From a virus, in the IMG/VR virus record IMGVR_UViG_3300048016_000049, positions 1 through 24,087 of that record: a stretch of 24,087 nt of DNA. One strand, written 5' to 3'. The number at the start of each line of letters is the position of its first letter. Positions within the stretch are counted from its first letter, which is position 1. Shown piece by piece: positions 2,102 through 24,087 of this stretch. The notes under the pieces are model-generated. The model was not told where the DNA came from, made no database searches, and saw only the letters and a list, made by a program, of their open reading frames with translations. Position numbers and translations under genes: made by a program.

Positions 2102-3787
2102 ATGGCAATTTGGTATACAGACAACATAAATGGTAATGATACAACTGGTTTAGGAACTATCGCAGCACCATACAAAACTATTGTTAAAGCTATTCAAGTA
2201 GGTACACAAGGAGATGAAATCAGAGTAGCTGGTTCAGGCTTTACAGCCCTTCCTGGTACAGCAACTGCTTCAGGTGGTAGTTTTTTTACTACTTCACAAT
2301 CTTTGGTGGGTTTAGTTAATCCTGGTGATATAATTACATATAATGATGTTGATTATGGTGATAAAAAGTTTTTCTTTAAAGTCTTTTCTGTTACTGCAAC
2401 TACTTTAACACTTGCATCTAGTCCAAATATTAGAGATGGTGTTGCAGTAAATTTGAGTAAATTAACTCAAAATCATTATTTTACAAATTCAACTAACATC
2501 ACGATTGAGAATATAAACTCAGTAACTACACTTGTTAAATCACAATTTGATATTAGAGGTGGTTGGATTAATAACTTTACAGAACAAACGGGTTGGACTG
2601 CAATGGTTTATCACTCTACATCATCTGCATCTGCTCAATCAAGTACAGCTTTTTCTGGTCCACAGGGACCTAACATGTACATGGATCGTTTTATGTTAGT
2701 GCATTTGTCTAACGGTTTAACGGGTTCATCTGCAGTTTCACACGTCTTTTTCCCAGGCACTATTGCAGCATTGCACATGTTAAATTCACTAAATATTTAC
2801 ACAGCACAAGCTAAAGATCATACTAACCCAGCGTATATAGCTAAAGATGCCTATTTAACCAATGCACCATTTGCTCAAATACAAACACCGCAAATAAATG
2901 CAGATGGTTCACCAGCTTTATCATATATGAATGTTTGGTCACAAAGAAATGCTTCTGTAGGAAATATAGGATCTGCTGTTAAAATTGAAAATTTATACGC
3001 TAAATCATTTGGCGGTAATAACCCAATGTCGAGTAATCAAAATTTAATTCCTTCAGCTCATACCGTTTTAAATAATTTATTTGTATCTAGTACTGCTGCG
3101 GGAATACAATATAATAATATAGTTTCAATTGGAGCTGTATTATATTTAAATGGTTCAATTACAAAATTGGGTTCAAATAAAGCTAGCATGTATTTTGGTT
3201 CTTTGGGTATGGCGCAATATATTTTACCAACTCAAAATATTGAAAATATCGATACACCAGATAATAGTGGTTTTCAAAGTATAAATGCTGGTTTAACCAA
3301 TCAAAACTTTTTAAACGCTATTAAACCTACAGGTTACATTAAAGATCAAGAAGGTGAAAAAACTATATTAGGTACTGGTCAAATCATTTTTGCAGATCCT
3401 ACACAATACAGTACAGGCACAAACTCTTTGAGAGTTAGTAAATCTTTGATTTTTCTAGGTGGATATCCAATATGTCCGATTGAGTCTTTATATGTTGATT
3501 CTTTAACAGCAAAAACAATAACTGTTAGATGTAAATCATCAACAGCAGGATCTGTTGTTTTCTCTTTAATATCTAGTCAAAAATACGGATTGTATAATAC
3601 ATCAACGCAAGTAATACCACTTTCAGCACAAACTAAAACAGTTAGCACTGAATGGACAGATGTTACATACACAGGTTTAGATGCATATTATGCTACTTTA
3701 TTTTTAAATTCATACATAGGATTGGGTATTGATGCTGCTGGATTACCAGGCAAATATATTTGGATTGACTCTGTAACAGTTTCATAA
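2102..3787 (+). CDS. Tail fibre or spike protein, beta-helix-like
   Basis: 561 residues. The N-terminus has a YTDNINGNDTTGLGTIAAPY segment followed by KTIVKAIQVG and then GDEIRV. This resembles the DUF1565/right-handed beta-helix entry motif in which a (Y/W)xDxxxGND...PYKTI segment precedes a parallel beta-helix. The remainder is rich in Asn, Ser, Thr, Gly and Ala with regularly spaced hydrophobics, consistent with repeated beta strands. The C-terminal 140 residues look like a separate beta-sandwich, possibly receptor or carbohydrate binding. It probably forms the adsorption fibre or spike. No catalytic motif was identified. It is the last gene before the large gene-free region, and a strong intrinsic terminator follows about 90 bp downstream. 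Confidence 0.65.
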   Translation: MAIWYTDNINGNDTTGLGTIAAPYKTIVKAIQVGTQGDEIRVAGSGFTALPGTATASGGSFFTTSQSLVGLVNPGDIITYNDVDYGDKKFFFKVFSVTATTLTLASSPNIRDGVAVNLSKLTQNHYFTNSTNITIENINSVTTLVKSQFDIRGGWINNFTEQTGWTAMVYHSTSSASAQSSTAFSGPQGPNMYMDRFMLVHLSNGLTGSSAVSHVFFPGTIAALHMLNSLNIYTAQAKDHTNPAYIAKDAYLTNAPFAQIQTPQINADGSPALSYMNVWSQRNASVGNIGSAVKIENLYAKSFGGNNPMSSNQNLIPSAHTVLNNLFVSSTAAGIQYNNIVSIGAVLYLNGSITKLGSNKASMYFGSLGMAQYILPTQNIENIDTPDNSGFQSINAGLTNQNFLNAIKPTGYIKDQEGEKTILGTGQIIFADPTQYSTGTNSLRVSKSLIFLGGYPICPIESLYVDSLTAKTITVRCKSSTAGSVVFSLISSQKYGLYNTSTQVIPLSAQTKTVSTEWTDVTYTGLDAYYATLFLNSYIGLGIDAAGLPGKYIWIDSVTVS

Positions 3788-3800
3788 TTTTAAAACTCTA

Positions 3801-3825
3801 CAAAATTATTTAGTATAAATACTAT
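3801..3825 (+). promoter_or_regulatory. 25-bp TATAAATA module, copy 1
   Basis: This shares 20 of 25 aligned bases with 4098-4122: both begin CAAAAT, carry TATAAATA at the same offset and end in TAT. Here the core is also an inverted repeat (TAGTAT-AA-ATACTA, 3812-3825). It lies 59 bp upstream of a terminator hairpin. I infer a promoter for a short RNA or an operator; TATAAATA resembles the T4 late promoter box, but there is no evidence that a T4-type factor is used. Confidence 0.4.
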
Positions 3826-3879
3826 GTAATGATTTGTGCCAACATTGATTACATATTTTATTTGTTATTTTATTATGTT

Positions 3880-3915
3880 AAAGCCGTTAGTATCTCATCA
3901 TCTAACGGCTTTTTT
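3880..3915 (+). terminator. Intrinsic terminator with 11-bp perfect stem
   Basis: AAAGCCGTTAG (3880-3890) pairs perfectly with CTAACGGCTTT (3902-3912) across an 11-nt loop, and six T residues follow the GC part (3910-3915). It would end the fibre operon transcript that comes from the left, or a short RNA started at 3801-3825. Confidence 0.85.
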
Positions 3916-3972
3916 ATTGAAACTAATTTTTATTCATCTATATAACCTTTATATATTATTCACAATTTAAAC

Positions 3973-3996
3973 GCGTGAAAAGGACACGCCTTTTTT
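3973..3996 (+). terminator. Hairpin with two mutually exclusive pairings, T-rich end
   Basis: GCGTG (3973-3977) can pair with CACGC (3985-3989), while AAAAGG (3978-3983) can pair with CCTTTT (3989-3994), which is followed by more T residues to 3996. Only the second pairing looks like a terminator; the first would prevent it. This could be a weak terminator or a switchable element. Confidence 0.45.
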
Positions 3997-4052
3997 AAAT
4001 TTGCTAAGAGCAGTACGCGTATTGAATGTGACGTATATCCAAACTTCTTTAT

Positions 4053-4086
4053 AAAAAAGCCAGAACTAGTCCCTCTGGCTTTTTTT
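4053..4086 (+). terminator. Bidirectional-type intrinsic terminator
   Basis: AAAAAAGCCAGA (4053-4064) pairs perfectly with TCTGGCTTTTTT (4074-4085) across a 9-nt loop. The A-run on the left and the T-run on the right allow termination on both strands. No gene ends immediately upstream, so it must act on read-through or on a short RNA starting within this region. Confidence 0.85.
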
Positions 4087-4097
4087 ATGAAACAAAT

Positions 4098-4122
4098 CAA
4101 AATAGATTGGTATAAATAGTAT
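4098..4122 (+). promoter_or_regulatory. 25-bp TATAAATA module, copy 2
   Basis: Second copy of the module at 3801-3825 (20 of 25 bases identical; TATAAATA at 4111-4118). A 14-bp perfect palindrome follows directly at 4127-4140 (AGCATCATGATGCT), flanked on both sides by CTCA. A terminator hairpin begins 45 bp further on. The arrangement module, short spacer, terminator is the same as for copy 1. Confidence 0.4.
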
Positions 4123-4126
4123 CTCA

Positions 4127-4140
4127 AGCATCATGATGCT
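4127..4140. repeat. 14-bp perfect palindrome flanked by CTCA direct repeats
   Basis: AGCATCATGATGCT is its own reverse complement. CTCA lies immediately before (4123-4126) and after it (4141-4144). A dimeric protein-binding site (operator) placed just downstream of the promoter-like module is the simplest reading. Confidence 0.5.
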
Positions 4141-4167
4141 CTCATAATATTTTTTCTTTTATTTTTT

Positions 4168-4196
4168 AAGGCTGGACGTTCTGTTCAGCCTTTTTT
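4168..4196 (+). terminator. Intrinsic terminator, 9-bp stem with one G-U pair
   Basis: AAGGCTGGA (4168-4176) pairs with TTCAGCCTT (4184-4192), with a 7-nt loop and a T-run to 4196. It is the last terminator before the early/replication operon starting at 4291. Confidence 0.8.
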
Positions 4197-4252
4197 ATGT
4201 AATATTATAATATAATTTTCAAAATGTGTTGAAACATAAATTTATTTTTATA

Positions 4253-4260
4253 TATAAATA
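4253..4260 (+). promoter_or_regulatory. TATAAATA in the leader of the replication operon
   Basis: A third TATAAATA in this region, 30 bp upstream of the ATG at 4291 and downstream of the last terminator. It lies where a promoter for the small protein and helicase genes is required. A TTG at 4229-4231 could serve as a -33 element, though the spacing is not a clean match to the Bacteroidota consensus (TTTG, 17-23 nt, TAnnTTTG). Low to moderate confidence. Confidence 0.35.
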
Positions 4261-4290
4261 AAACAAACAAATAAATAAAATTTAATTATT

Positions 4291-4551
4291 ATGACAAAAA
4301 AACGAAAACCAACCAACTCAAAATTAGACTCTCATGCTTTTAGAGATGTAAACCCAGAAATAGTATATAATACTCAAGTCCCATACTATCAAGGTACTGA
4401 GATGGAAATCACACCAGTATTTAGAGTACTTCCACATTTATGTCTTGATAATCTTGAATTAGATTTATCGGGTATCTGTTTTACAGAAGAATATCATGAT
4501 ATGCAAGTCGCTGAATTTTTAATTGAACAATTTTTAAATGTAAAAAAATAA
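4291..4551 (+). CDS. Small hypothetical protein upstream of the helicase
   Basis: 86 residues, beginning with a basic stretch (MTKKRKPTNSKLDSHAF) followed by an acidic, hydrophobic C-terminal half with ELDLSGICFTEEYHD and an amphipathic final helix (AEFLIEQFLNVKK). It is the first gene after the terminator array and lies 9 bp before the helicase gene, so it is likely co-expressed early and may assist or regulate replication. I do not recognise a family. The basic head could contact nucleic acid, but this is inference only. Confidence 0.6.
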   Translation: MTKKRKPTNSKLDSHAFRDVNPEIVYNTQVPYYQGTEMEITPVFRVLPHLCLDNLELDLSGICFTEEYHDMQVAEFLIEQFLNVKK

Positions 4552-4560
4552 AATAAAAGT

Positions 4561-6345
4561 ATGACGTATTTACAAGAGAACTCTGATAGAATTTTGATTA
4601 ACCATGCATTAGATAATCCTAATGTATGGTCTCAAGTTTCTATTCCAGATTTTTACAATGATCCTATAGCTAAAGCATTAGCATGGAGTATTATCAAATT
4701 TAAATTAGAACATCATAGATTACCATCAAAAGAAGAAATTATTGATAAAGTAGACATTAGACGTATCAAGGCTGATAAAGATGATGTAACACTTTATTTG
4801 AGTATGGATCCTATTGATGAATCTACATTACAAGACACTATTAATTGGTGGAAAGCATCTCGTATGATCGTAGATATTTGGTTAAAGGATCTAACTAATG
4901 ATCGTTTAACAGATGTTGATAAAGATCGTTTAAAGAAATGTGCTGGCGTTTTAAAAGAAGGCACGTGGAGTGAAAAAATTGGTAATTATATAGAAACTAT
5001 GTGGATTAAAGTATGTGATCCCAAATTCTTTAAAAAGACACCAGAAAGATCTAACTCTTCGACAGATACAAGTACTGACACTGAAGGCGAGGCCTATGAT
5101 AGAATCCTAGATAATTATGCATGGATTGGACCTGACATTTATCTAATCTATCCTAATGGTGAACAAGTTAAGTATAATCAAGCTGGTTTTAAAGCACGTT
5201 TTCCAGGTAGGGATATATCTCCGAGTCATATTCCAAATATCTTTTCATCTGAAGGTTATAAACCCAATTATTTTGATCCTAATAGACGTATCGAGAATAA
5301 CAAGTACAATACTTTTAAAACTCCAAATGTTAAAATAGAAGAAGGCGATTGGTCTATGACAAAAATTTTATTAAAGCACATCTTCGGTGAACAATATGAA
5401 CTGGGTTTAGAATACTATTGGGTTAAAAGACACAGACCAACTCAAGCATTACCTGCATTATGTTTAGTAGGTGATGAAGACGCTGGTAAATCAACTATCG
5501 GTTTACACCAAGAAATGTGTTTTGCTAATGCAGTTAAGATACAAATGCAGCGTTTAGAAAAAGACGAAAACGCGTTTGTAGTTGGTGTACAAGATATTAT
5601 TATTGAAGAATCTAGCCAACATGGTAGTAATAAATCAGTCAATCCACAATTAGTAGTTGATAAAATCAAAGATATGGTTACTTCAACTGGCGGTAAAATA
5701 CCATGTAAACAATTATATGCTAATGCTGCTGAGACTGAATACTTTGCCAAGATTATGATGTTCTCAAACGATATGACGCCTATTAAAATGGATGGTGAAG
5801 CTACTCGTTTTTGGATTCGCAGAATTGGTAAACCAGAAAAGCATGAGAACTTTACTCAGATATTACGTCAAGAAGTTGGAGCGTTTTTATATTATTTAGA
5901 CAATCAATTCGAACCTTCAAGAACTGAAAGTAAAGAGCGTTTATGGTTTCATCCTTCTGAGTATTGGACATTACATAAAGAAGTAGCCAGAAATGCCAGT
6001 GGATCTGTAGGCTATAACGCTGTTAAAGAAAGACTTTTAGAATGGTTTGAGGAAAATCCAAATGAAGAATTCTGTTACTTTGATTTAAAATCTTTAAAGT
6101 CCTATGTGTGTGATGATAATTTTATGGCTACAACATATCAATTAAAAGATATTTTACTAAAAGAATTTAAAATGACACCACCTTCTGGTGAGAGAAAACC
6201 TGTACCTGATAGCCTTGATATTTTAAAAAATACTGATGGAAAATGGACAAAGCGCAAGATGGATTACTTCAAAATCAATCGAGATTTTAAAAATATTCAA
6301 ACTTTAGAGACCACCGAGGACCTCGCAAATGTCTTCGAAGTGTAA
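4561..6345 (+). CDS. SF3-type replicative helicase (D5/DUF5906-like)
   Basis: 594 residues. Residues about 1-110 look like a DnaB-N-type helical domain (FYNDPIAKALAWSIIKFKLE). The middle holds the ATPase core: Walker A GDEDAGKST at 304-312, Walker B DIIIEE at 345-350, sensor-1 MMFSND ending at 404, and an arginine-finger-like EATRFWIRR at 413-421. Residues about 495-594 look like a C-terminal winged helix, as in D5-like helicases. No primase (TOPRIM or AEP) motif is visible in the N-terminal half. It should unwind phage DNA at an origin, most plausibly the repeat cluster that begins within its own 3' end (an inverted repeat copy lies at 6245-6253). Transcription probably ends at the hairpin at 6345-6392. 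Confidence 0.85.
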   Translation: MTYLQENSDRILINHALDNPNVWSQVSIPDFYNDPIAKALAWSIIKFKLEHHRLPSKEEIIDKVDIRRIKADKDDVTLYLSMDPIDESTLQDTINWWKASRMIVDIWLKDLTNDRLTDVDKDRLKKCAGVLKEGTWSEKIGNYIETMWIKVCDPKFFKKTPERSNSSTDTSTDTEGEAYDRILDNYAWIGPDIYLIYPNGEQVKYNQAGFKARFPGRDISPSHIPNIFSSEGYKPNYFDPNRRIENNKYNTFKTPNVKIEEGDWSMTKILLKHIFGEQYELGLEYYWVKRHRPTQALPALCLVGDEDAGKSTIGLHQEMCFANAVKIQMQRLEKDENAFVVGVQDIIIEESSQHGSNKSVNPQLVVDKIKDMVTSTGGKIPCKQLYANAAETEYFAKIMMFSNDMTPIKMDGEATRFWIRRIGKPEKHENFTQILRQEVGAFLYYLDNQFEPSRTESKERLWFHPSEYWTLHKEVARNASGSVGYNAVKERLLEWFEENPNEEFCYFDLKSLKSYVCDDNFMATTYQLKDILLKEFKMTPPSGERKPVPDSLDILKNTDGKWTKRKMDYFKINRDFKNIQTLETTEDLANVFEV

Positions 6346-6392
6346 AAAAGATGACAAAGTACGTAAAAAAGTATCAGCTTTGTCATCTTTTT
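6345..6392 (+). terminator. Terminator-like hairpin with 15-bp perfect stem
   Basis: AAAAAGATGACAAAG (6345-6359) pairs perfectly with CTTTGTCATCTTTTT (6378-6392), with an 18-nt loop, and starts at the last base of the helicase gene. The arms contain the TGACAAAG/CTTTGTCA version of the repeat that fills the next 200 bp, so terminator and repeat cluster are fused. Confidence 0.7.
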
Positions 6393-6606
6393 AGCAGCTT
6401 TGTCCGAGCTTTGTCCACAGCTTTGTCCACTAAAAAATGCTGTTTGGGCGCTCTATTATATCTTTATCTCTCTTTTTTAAAGAAAAAGTATATAAAATGG
6501 ACAAAGCTGGGGGAAACCATTAGGAGGATATAATAAACCCTATAGAGAGGGTACCCTGCACCCGAGCAGAGGTTTCTGGTGGGCTTTGTCCATCGGCTTT
6601 GTCCAT
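6376..6606. repeat. Iteron-like cluster of GCTTTGTCC repeats (origin candidate)
   Basis: Copies of (A/G)GCTTTGTC(C/A) lie at 6376-6385, 6396-6405, 6407-6416, 6419-6428, 6582-6591 and 6595-6604 on the + strand, and inverted at 6499-6508. One more inverted copy lies inside the helicase gene (6245-6253). The left group is spaced 11-12 bp centre to centre (about one helical turn), the right pair 13 bp. Between the groups are an A/T-rich stretch (6430-6498) and a GC-richer structured segment. The pattern fits iterons bound by an initiator next to a replicative helicase gene. The copy at 6411-6419 (TTGTCCACA) is one base from the DnaA box TTATCCACA. No gene is visible between 6346 and 6653. Confidence 0.7.
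6497..6593 (+). other. Multi-branched inverted-repeat structure inside the iteron region
   Basis: ATGGACAAAGC (6497-6507) pairs perfectly with GCTTTGTCCAT (6583-6593). Inside it GAAACC (6513-6518) pairs with GGTTTC (6571-6576), and two further hairpins sit within: ACCCT/AGGGT (6537-6541 with 6548-6552) and CTGC/GCAG (6556-6559 with 6566-6569). The segment is clearly richer in G and C than its surroundings and contains a lone AGGAGG (6522-6527) with no suitably placed ATG. It could be a cruciform at the origin or a structured RNA. Confidence 0.5.
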
Positions 6607-6613
6607 ATTATAA
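6585..6613 (+). promoter_or_regulatory. Possible promoter for the HNH-to-sigma gene block
   Basis: TTTG at 6585-6588, within a repeat copy, and TATTATAA at 6606-6613 are separated by 17 nt, close to the Bacteroidota -33/-7 arrangement, although the -7 box is a poor match to TAnnTTTG. It lies 40 bp before the ATG at 6654. If correct, binding of an initiator to the repeats would also repress this promoter. Confidence 0.3.
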
Positions 6614-6653
6614 AACAAACTTAAACATTAATAATAAAAATAATATATAATTT

Positions 6654-7019
6654 ATGAAAGCAGAACAATTCAAAACATTTAAAAAGAAACCTTACGGTTA
6701 TAGAGTACCACAAAGCAATGGTACAAAAACAGAATATGTAGGGATATCAGAGTGGTTAATCTCAGATCATGGTAGAGTAATCCTAAAACATTACAGAGAT
6801 GACATGTCATTGATTAGTGAAAGAGAAGTTAACCAATTTTGGAAAGGTAAACCAGGATCTCCTAAAATGCTAGGTATACCAACTGGTGAATATGTTAATC
6901 GTCTTGTAGCCCTAAACTTTTTAGACAACACAGAAAACTGTAGATTTGTAAAACACATAGACGGTAACAGAGAAAACAACCACGTAGATAATTTAACTTG
7001 GTCTAAAACCCATAAATAA
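6654..7019 (+). CDS. HNH endonuclease-like protein
   Basis: 121 residues. The C-terminal 42 residues match the HNH_3-type pattern: a RLVALNFL core, then VKHIDGNRENNHVDNLTW, where H101, N109, H110 and N113 are the candidate metal/catalytic positions. The N-terminal half (ISEWLISDHGRVI) resembles the NUMOD4-type DNA-contact element usually paired with HNH homing endonucleases. The residue before RLVA is Asn (N82) where the family usually has His, which may affect metal binding or fold. Alone between the origin candidate and a winged-helix gene, it may be a homing endonuclease or a nicking enzyme for replication or packaging. Confidence 0.75.
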   Translation: MKAEQFKTFKKKPYGYRVPQSNGTKTEYVGISEWLISDHGRVILKHYRDDMSLISEREVNQFWKGKPGSPKMLGIPTGEYVNRLVALNFLDNTENCRFVKHIDGNRENNHVDNLTWSKTHK

Positions 7020-8233: not shown

Positions 8234-8449
8234 ATGACAGAAATTAATTATCAATGGTTACTCGAACACAAGCAATACCTTTACGGTAGAGTGTCAATTA
8301 AACGAGAGGATTGGTTAGATCTCTACAGGATTTATAACGAAACCTTTAACGAAACAAAAAGCCCGAATGGTTGCGGCGCTTGTCAACGCACAACGCTTGA
8401 CAAGTTACGCGTAGCATTTGAGGCATATCAAATTAATGATAGCCAATAA
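8234..8449 (+). CDS. Small protein with a CGAC motif
   Basis: 71 residues. The first half is helical and charged (WLLEHKQYLYGRVSIKREDW); the second contains NGCGACQRTTLDKLR, a CGxC pair followed by an amphipathic helix. Similar short proteins with a (K/N)GCGxCxRN motif recur in Bacteroidota phages, but their function is not known to me. The two cysteines could bind metal with a partner. It overlaps the start of the sigma-like gene by 14 bp, suggesting coupled translation. Confidence 0.55.
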   Translation: MTEINYQWLLEHKQYLYGRVSIKREDWLDLYRIYNETFNETKSPNGCGACQRTTLDKLRVAFEAYQINDSQ

Positions 8450-8942
8450 ATGGATCTCAGATAATTATGTAGCAATACTCGAATGGTCTAAAAACATAGC
8501 TGGTACTAAAGACTACGAGGACCTCGCACATTATGTGATTGAGGTCTTTTTAGTGCATAAAAATAGAGAAACCATAGTTGAAGACGGTGGAGCTAGATGG
8601 TTTATAGTTCGAACCATGATGAATGCTTACAGATCTTCAACCTCAGAGTATCATACCATTTATAGAGAAAAAGGTCGAATGGTTGGATTAACCAACGACG
8701 GCGCGAAGACAGTTGAAGATCATTACGATTATGAATTAGATGTTACAATTGTGAACATCGAAACTTTATTAGCTACAGCTTTAGCATCAAAAGATCCAGC
8801 ACTTTGGTACCGAGCACAGTTATTTAAACTTTATCTTGAGACATCAAACTATTCAGAGTTAGCTCGATCAACTGGCATTGCAAGAACTTCAATCTCTATT
8901 GCAGTTAATGAGTTTAAAGATTGGATCAAAACAAATTTATAA
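8436..8942 (+). CDS. Sigma-70-like (ECF-type) transcription factor
   Basis: 168 residues from ATG 8436; a TTG at 8418 would add six residues but lies deeper in the previous gene. Residues about 10-75 resemble sigma region 2: YEDLAHYVIEVFL is like the DxxDLxQEVFL helix and ARWFIVRTMMNAYRSS like the following helix. Residues about 125-162 form a region-4-type helix-turn-helix (NYSELARSTGIARTSISIAV). The linker is short, as in ECF sigma factors. It should direct host RNA polymerase to phage promoters, probably those of the structural genes that begin shortly downstream. Divergence from bacterial sigma factors is considerable, so a terminase-linked DNA-binding role is the alternative. Confidence 0.6.
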   Translation: MIANKWISDNYVAILEWSKNIAGTKDYEDLAHYVIEVFLVHKNRETIVEDGGARWFIVRTMMNAYRSSTSEYHTIYREKGRMVGLTNDGAKTVEDHYDYELDVTIVNIETLLATALASKDPALWYRAQLFKLYLETSNYSELARSTGIARTSISIAVNEFKDWIKTNL

Positions 8943-17125: not shown

Positions 17126-17154
17126 AAGAGTCCGTTTCAATAGCGGACTCTTTT
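17126..17154 (+). terminator. Intrinsic terminator after the tail-tip gene
   Basis: AAGAGTCCG (17126-17134) pairs perfectly with CGGACTCTT (17144-17152) across a 9-nt loop, with a TTTT end. It separates the tail operon from the tape measure gene and implies a new promoter between 17155 and 17185, where TTTTATATTT (17151-17160) overlaps the terminator tail. Confidence 0.85.
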
Positions 17155-21950: not shown

Positions 21951-22475
21951 ATGGCATGTATTTTAACAGCTGGTATCGAAAATTTAGGATGCCGCGACAA
22001 CCAAGGTGGTATTGAGTACGTATACATTGCGTCAGTAGTTGCAGCTCCTGCTACAATCACTGAGACTGCAGGTAAAGTAACCGCAATTTCATACGATGGC
22101 AATGCTGTAGCTTCTTCAGATTTTTTTAAATTTGCTGTCAATAAACAAACATCATCTTTTACAGAAACTTCAACTGCAAGTTCTGAAAATGGTAGTATCT
22201 TCTACCAACAAGATGTTAACATTATTTTCAGAAAGTTAGAAAGTGCTAAAAGAGACATCATCAAATTATTAGGACAAGCGACTAATCTTTTGGTAGTTGT
22301 AAAGGACAACAACGGTAAATTTTTCTCAGCGGGTATTACTCGTGGAGCTGAATTAACGGCTGGTTCTGCACAAACAGGTGTGGCCTATGGCGATTTGAAT
22401 GGCTATAACATTACACTAACAGGCTTTGAGCCAGATCCTTCATACGAAGTAGCTGGCGCATTAGTTGGTGAGTAA
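21951..22475 (+). CDS. Structural protein, possible major tail tube protein
   Basis: 174 residues starting MACILTAGIENLGCRDNQGG, a pattern I have seen after capsid genes in Bacteroidota phages and crAss-like relatives. The body alternates strands with one helix (IIFRKLESAKRDIIKLLGQA, about 87-106), then VVVKDNNGKFFSAGI and GYNITLTGFEPDPSYEV, resembling the beta-sandwich plus helix of tail tube proteins. No other gene in the genome is a clear tube candidate, although the large protein at 12317 is possible. It could instead be a capsid decoration protein. Two conserved-looking cysteines sit at positions 3 and 14. A terminator follows 20 bp downstream. Confidence 0.5.
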   Translation: MACILTAGIENLGCRDNQGGIEYVYIASVVAAPATITETAGKVTAISYDGNAVASSDFFKFAVNKQTSSFTETSTASSENGSIFYQQDVNIIFRKLESAKRDIIKLLGQATNLLVVVKDNNGKFFSAGITRGAELTAGSAQTGVAYGDLNGYNITLTGFEPDPSYEVAGALVGE

Positions 22476-22495: not shown

Positions 22496-22526
22496 AAAAA
22501 GGAAGTCTTTATGGCTTCCTTTTTTT
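22496..22526 (+). terminator. Intrinsic terminator after the capsid/tube unit
   Basis: AAAAAGGAAG (22496-22505) pairs perfectly with CTTCCTTTTT (22515-22524) across a 9-nt loop, with a run of seven T residues (22520-22526). It ends the scaffold-capsid-tube transcript. Confidence 0.85.
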
Positions 22527-24069: not shown

Positions 24070-24087
24070 ATGGCAGCAGTATTATTA
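24070..24087 (+). CDS. 5' end of the connector gene (continues at base 1)
   Basis: ATG followed by GCA GCA GTA TTA TTA (MAAVLL), cut by the window end, 4 bp after the portal stop. Joined to base 1 the frame continues without interruption to 573. If the terminal TTATTA is a 6-bp assembly overlap with the first TTATTA, the protein would have LL rather than LLLL there, still in frame. Confidence 0.7.

Follow-up and report, generated by a model that had tools for sequence, protein, structure and literature searches.

A putative tandem cluster of three small-RNA genes at the late/early boundary of a 24-kb phage genome

The window analysed here, that is, the whole stretch of DNA under study, is an IMG/VR virus record of 24,087 bp (IMGVR_UViG_3300048016_000049) whose ends share a 6-bp overlap, TTATTA (1-6 and 24082-24087). 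Since the ends are shared and the sequence of a related contig, L084, is continuous through the end joint of the window record, the map is circular and essentially complete, at ~24,081 bp, in a circularly permuted record. All large genes are located on the + strand, and the late genes are separated from the early ones by a gap of 504 bp (3787-4291) with a G+C content of 24%. The genes around this gap are the following.

2102-3787, + strand: fibre gene, the last of the late genes
4291-4551, + strand: first early ORF, 86 aa, in the predicted operon of the promoter at 4230; 55.6% to L087
4561-6345, + strand: DUF5906/primase gene, early, after the 86-aa ORF

A first-pass annotation, made from the sequence alone, had described a gene-free region of about 500 bp at this place, which is confirmed by the present analysis, given that the gap is the only one in the window above 220 bp and that it contains no ORF of 60 aa or more. 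A tRNA/tmRNA search of the window returned none. The elements delineated in the gap, in map order, are listed below.

3791-3818, + strand: promoter PA, TAAAAC-N17-TATAA, with one mismatch to TGAAAC (relatives have TGAAAC), preceding RNA A
3826-3915, + strand: RNA A (predicted, ~90 nt), with a 5' hairpin, a U-rich linker (3853-3879) and terminator T1
3880-3916, + strand: terminator T1, hairpin 3880-3912 (-14.0 kcal/mol), then a T run; ends RNA A
3918-3945, + strand: promoter P2, TGAAAC-N17-TATAA, preceding RNA 2
3953-4088, + strand: RNA 2 (predicted, ~135 nt), with the AAAAGGA hairpin T2, a second small hairpin and terminator T3
3973-3989, + strand: hairpin T2 (-5.2 kcal/mol, 5 bp only), stem GCGUG/CACGC, loop AAAAGGA, then U6
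4053-4088, + strand: terminator T3, hairpin 4056-4082 (-10.8 kcal/mol), then a T run; ends RNA 2
4088-4115, + strand: promoter PB, TGAAAC-N17-TATAA, preceding RNA B
4123-4197, + strand: RNA B (predicted, ~75 nt), with a 5' hairpin, a U-rich linker (4144-4167) and terminator T4
4168-4197, + strand: terminator T4, hairpin 4168-4192 (-14.2 kcal/mol), loop CGUUCUG, then a T run; ends RNA B
4201-4219, + strand: AT-rich element AATATTATAATATAATTTT, directly upstream of the early promoter
4230-4257, + strand: early-operon promoter, TGAAAC-N17-TATAA, preceding ORF 4291

Four hairpins facing the same direction had been claimed for this region, and all of them are present on the + strand, each followed by a T run. 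By a simple terminator scan, which lists T4 and T2 but passes over T1 and T3 on account of loops longer than 8 nt, five terminator-like sites were counted over 3000-5200 on the two strands together, where the shuffled expectation is 0.7. T3 is also a good predicted terminator on the - strand (-11.5), and a further weak hairpin (3823-3855) is found where RNA A begins. The fourth, weaker terminator of the first-pass annotation, T2, exists as a hairpin but does not delimit a unit of its own, being internal to RNA 2, where it is possibly a leaky terminator. Elsewhere in the window, strong intrinsic terminators are found after the primase gene (6350-6387), after the 13908-17114 gene (17126-17152) and after ORF 21951-22475 (22496-22524), and the TGAAAC promoter is absent behind these three.

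The same 25-bp module had been noticed in two of the intervals. This module belongs to a repeat pair, D1 (3788-3825 and 4085-4122, 71% over 38 nt), and is, by comparison with related phages, the promoter of units A and B, but further copies of its core had escaped notice at 3918 and 4230, which raises the number of predicted promoters to four. A second repeat pair, D5, follows D1 in register (spacing 297 and 294), so that promoter region and U-rich linker are common to both units. The units are preceded by TGAAAC, 17 nt and TATAA or TATAT, the consensus in related IMG/VR phages being TTGAAAC-N17-TATAA. In the window, TGAAAC-N12-20-TATAWWA occurs twice (0.11 expected) and mismatch-free GAAAC-N17-TATA three times, in every case inside the gap. 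In the arrays of related phages, TATAA was spaced 17 nt from GAAAC in 27 cases, with none at 16 or 18; in kin contigs fetched by terminase, independently of the motif, there were 13 cases at a spacing of 17 (a few of these contigs are near-identical), and the spacing pattern was found in 0 of 56 distant terminase loci. The canonical Bacteroidetes promoter, TTTG-N-TAnnTTTG, was not above chance in the window. The AT-rich element at 4201-4219 could be an operator or a UP-like upstream promoter element, and such an element (AATATTATAATATAATTT) also stands before TGAAAC in L084 (13788), L085 (3331), L087 (7304) and L159 (- strand).

Contigs with the same slot were identified by protein search, namely L084 (portal 88%), L085, L086 and L087 (fibre 42-47%), a wider circle of kin contigs was fetched by terminase (42-50%), and L159 was retrieved by the terminator-promoter junction pattern. 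Across the gap, the window aligns with L087 at 83% over 3853-4083 and with L084 at 85% over 4077-4278. Conservation of the segments between terminators in related phages had been suggested as a check on the first reading, and the units are indeed present in the same slot and conserved, the order seen in L011-L015, L018, L084-L087, L105, L141 and L159 being last late gene, promoter a few nt behind it, RNA, terminator and early promoter. The combination of units varies, with A and B in L084 and L159, A and 2 in L085-L087, and A alone as a further arrangement, suggesting that the units are exchanged as cassettes. Promoter, terminators, conservation at the RNA level and exchange of units among phages are all shown by this comparison. 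Among named phages, protein similarity is only distant (portal 31% to Nonlabens/Persicivirga phage P12024S), and no convincing nucleotide relative of the gap region or of its relatives was found among annotated phages.

Some further observations were made in these contigs. In L001, the primase-region DNA is 97% identical to window positions 4600-6627, and the portal and other genes are at ~40%, a disparity that suggests recent mosaic exchange. A further promoter followed by a shared non-coding motif, TAATCCGCNCCTGCTTNYCAG, is found in L086 (7994-8060) and L105 (520-600), and is perhaps a fourth RNA cassette. In L173, a unit of ~55 nt with promoter, U-rich stretch and terminator lies on the - strand (~4281-4190) amid structural genes, indicating that cassettes of this kind are not confined to the late/early slot.

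RNA A and RNA B appear to share one design, composed of a 5' hairpin, a long U-rich single strand and a GC-rich terminator. In RNAs of the A and B types, U makes up 50-67% of the body, and on the whole + strand of the window 24-mers containing 17 T or more are confined to RNA A and RNA B. With the terminator included, none of 200 shuffles folds as well as either RNA (z -4.1 for A and -4.3 for B). Units akin to RNA A were found in all the kin contigs in which the slot order was seen, and RNA B in L084 and L159. In six phages, 98.5% of the T1 cells are paired, with both-sided changes at 6 of 11 pairs and none of 500 shuffles as good; since terminator stems would covary for termination alone, the covariation of T1 and T3 is not by itself proof of RNA function. 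The exact T1 core had no match in viral_contigs. In the wider circle, the hairpin loop (A)GCCAUU(U) of unit A is kept on wholly different stems (L014, L018, L021, L089 and L105), and a GCCAUU hairpin loop was also recognised by eye in unit A of L141; similarly, the T4 loop CGUUCUG is invariant on a stem that differs in L159. Given that third positions of unchanged codons between the window and L084 are already at 81-93%, the 87% of unit B is not exceptional.

RNA 2 is predicted to follow a different design, more structured than A and B and with AAAAGGA displayed in a hairpin loop. Its 5' UAUUCACAAUU strand pairs with a later AAUNGUGA strand, and in independent minimum-energy folds from four phages the 5' UUCACAAUU strand pairs with a later AAUNGUGA-type strand, the L086 centroid being different. 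When the terminator is included, RNA 2 also folds better than every one of the 200 shuffles (z -4.2); for its body alone, z is -2.8 in the window, and relatives show no significance. The two hairpins are 97% paired, with both-sided changes at 4 pairs; no variation is seen in the loop AAAAGGA, in UAUUCACAA upstream of it or in the U6 that follows, and the T2 stem is changed on both strands. Between the window and L087, unit 2 with its promoter is at 84.9%, the fibre gene at 67.6% and third positions of unchanged codons at 66.4%, and between the window and L085 the values are 78.0% for unit 2 and 66.4% for third positions. This excess may be regarded as support rather than proof, and horizontal exchange of the cassette could contribute to it. 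Single-base indels separate RNA 2 of the window from that of L087 and L085, which argues against coding. ORF 3960-4127 (- strand) was discarded, its frame being broken in relatives by single-base indels, and frames of 18-23 aa over RNA 2 in L105 and L141 have no counterpart in the window or L085. Only four copies of RNA 2 are clear; a diverged copy in L141 is weakly matched by the RNA 2 model (22 bits, E 0.085), and the L105 copy is not picked up by it. In L087, T3 has decayed and a new terminator adjoins it (6708-6735). The RNA 2 core had no copy in cellular genomes.

We consider it probable that the gap is a tandem cluster of three phage small-RNA genes. Each gene would have a TTGAAAC-N17-TATAA promoter and an intrinsic terminator to itself, each unit's terminator would abut the promoter of the next unit, and a fourth promoter of the same type would start the replication operon. 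The predicted units have what is expected of small-RNA genes, that is, a dedicated promoter close upstream that is conserved in kin, an intrinsic terminator within ~150 nt (T1, T3 and T4), no conserved reading frame, and sequence or structure conserved beyond that of the neighbours. The proposal of serial promoter-terminator units making short non-coding RNAs thus stands in its comparative part, since promoter, terminator position, loops and pairing are kept in kin, and we infer that the RNAs accumulate. Their lengths had been put at 60-90 nt, a range that has to be revised to predicted units of ~90, ~135 and ~75 nt. No match to Rfam was obtained at the gathering threshold, and sub-threshold matches were all far below gathering scores; the RNA families would therefore be new to Rfam and represent a known kind of element in an exchangeable cassette arrangement. 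A resemblance of the sequence TATTCACAA to CRISPR repeats would be conjectural. RNA anti-CRISPRs (Racr, PMC10651486), which mimic a host CRISPR repeat, are, like the window units, solitary short phage RNAs. A closer resemblance is found to the trans-acting phage small RNAs PreS of lambda and VpdS of VP882 (PMC12197685), which are also short, have their own promoter and intrinsic terminator and lie between phage genes, whereas the window, from a phage of Bacteroidota type, has three units in tandem that follow two designs. The FopS/GibS family of Bacteroides (PMC11697453) is likewise present in several copies and comes from Bacteroidota, but it is host-encoded, has another sequence and is driven by canonical sigma-ABfr promoters.

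A scan for T6AT-(0-2)-GAAAC-N17-TATAA retrieved at least 119 stretches, most of them with a strong hairpin ending at the T run, and a terminator directly followed by a TGAAAC promoter appears to be a widespread layout, shared by at least about 100 unrelated viral contigs. These contigs (L094-L207) reach 430 kb, and many carry strong sigma70-ECF genes. In cellular genomes, one strict form of the junction had no copies, the pattern being too strict to prove absence. Such a common layout would suit an insulator, in which stacked terminators bar late fibre transcripts and, via T3, opposite ones, the promoters only replenish polymerase, and the short RNAs are by-products. The array does lie exactly at the late/early boundary in kin phages, T3 is bidirectional, and T1 must also end fibre-gene transcripts. 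Nevertheless, we regard this explanation as unlikely, because it accounts neither for the conserved loops on changing stems (AAAAGGA, CGUUCUG and GCCAUU) nor for the conserved U-rich linkers, nor for an RNA 2 better conserved than the fibre gene. In addition, mini-units, in which another terminator soon follows the promoter, depart from the ordinary layout, being found in 8 of 14 kin contigs (some of them near-duplicates) against 2 of 105 unrelated contigs among the matches listed.

Several ECF sigmas, such as Bacillus SigW, have TGAAAC as their -35 box, and the phage has a candidate reader for its promoters.

8418-8942, + strand: ECF-like sigma factor, putative reader of the TGAAAC promoters

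This ORF, whose product would be a diverged sigma, is conserved in kin phages, near the terminase genes. The TIGR02937 sigma70-ECF model is matched at E <= 0.1 by 15 of 17 homologues, with a best E of 1.4e-8, but none exceeds the curated cut-off, and the window copy gives no match by itself, so that its own assignment is weak. With Foldseek, the structure model (pLDDT 82.7) matched ECF sigmas best, at E 7.9e-3 and with a TM-score of 0.33 across two domains that are joined flexibly. A sigma70-ECF match was present in 30 of 40 unrelated junction contigs among the matches listed, 15 of them above the curated cut-off, and in 12 of 33 control records, none above the cut-off and mostly to the C-terminal part only; the two sets differ in genome size and lineage, so the association of sigma and junction is a lead, and the link of this sigma to the promoter is likewise an association. 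As in ECF sigma promoters, the -35 box is TGAAAC and an ECF-like sigma gene is at hand, but in the window it is followed by TATAA after N17 rather than by a CGTA-type -10.

The same ORF bears on another explanation. In the lambda pR'-tR' leader, which yields the 6S RNA, a promoter, a short RNA and a terminator stand upstream of an operon, and the gap could by analogy hold antitermination leaders, with a constitutive start, a stop at T1, T3 or T4 and later factor-driven read-through. This layout is shared, and among the homologues of ORF 8418 there are weak matches to PHROG 79, 'anti-termination protein Q-like' (8 of 17), and to PF06530 (6). However, more of them match the ECF sigma model and the best fold matches are ECF sigmas, the candidate factor thus resembling a sigma more than Q, the operon has by sequence its own promoter at 4230, behind T4, and three serial leaders would be unnecessary, all of which makes such leaders very unlikely. 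A replication origin or RNA-primer region, with the AT-rich stretch and promoters serving initiation, is very improbable, since the 24% G+C, the adjoining primase gene, a small local change in GC skew and the conserved element at 4201-4219 are offset by the absence of iterons seen in the gap and of a clear skew turning point, by T4 and RNA loops left unexplained and by an AT-rich element that tracks the early promoter, and for a packaging locus, also suggested at first, no evidence was found.

Under the small-RNA cluster, the promoters are all of one type and the RNAs should therefore be made together with the early operon, by a polymerase that would carry the phage ECF-like sigma factor or a host sigma. 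The most likely mode of action would be in trans, through the U-rich strand in the case of A and B, as antisense, chaperone-bound or sponge RNAs, and through the loop in the case of RNA 2, with T1 secondarily shielding the replication operon from fibre transcripts. Binding partners, too, are inferred. The best duplexes with phage translation starts were no better than those of shuffled RNAs, complements of the conserved loops were absent from phage gene starts, and pairing of the GCCAUU loop with ATGGC gene starts was rejected, no site having the full complement. For an RNA that is held by a chaperone or serves as a sponge, a U-rich single strand ending in a terminator is a suitable form, and in Bacteroides the protein RbpB is found in association with FopS RNAs, which combine a single-stranded 5' stretch with a terminator (PMC11697453). 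Speculatively, the AAGGA loop could pair with the 16S 3' tail, to which it is complementary, with an energy of -5.9 to -11.7 kcal/mol as a plain duplex with an assumed tail; in Bacteroidia this tail is hidden, and an exceptionally strong SD is used at rpsU (PMC9976891). In a broader and quite doubtful scenario, a class of Bacteroidota phages would possess, where late genes meet early ones, a stock of interchangeable small-RNA cassettes, all read by the phage's own ECF-like sigma, and the SD-like AAGGA loop of RNA 2 would engage the 16S 3' tail or an RNA-binding protein, redirecting host translation where ribosomes normally hide the anti-SD.

Small RNAs in phages infecting Bacteroidota have hardly been studied, none being described in the literature searched, and for the present cluster the sequence alone allows the starts and ends of the RNAs to be predicted and points to conserved loops and to a candidate sigma factor. 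Moreover, TTGAAAC-N17-TATAA is possibly a general promoter of such phages, and it may provide a general key for reading their transcription units.
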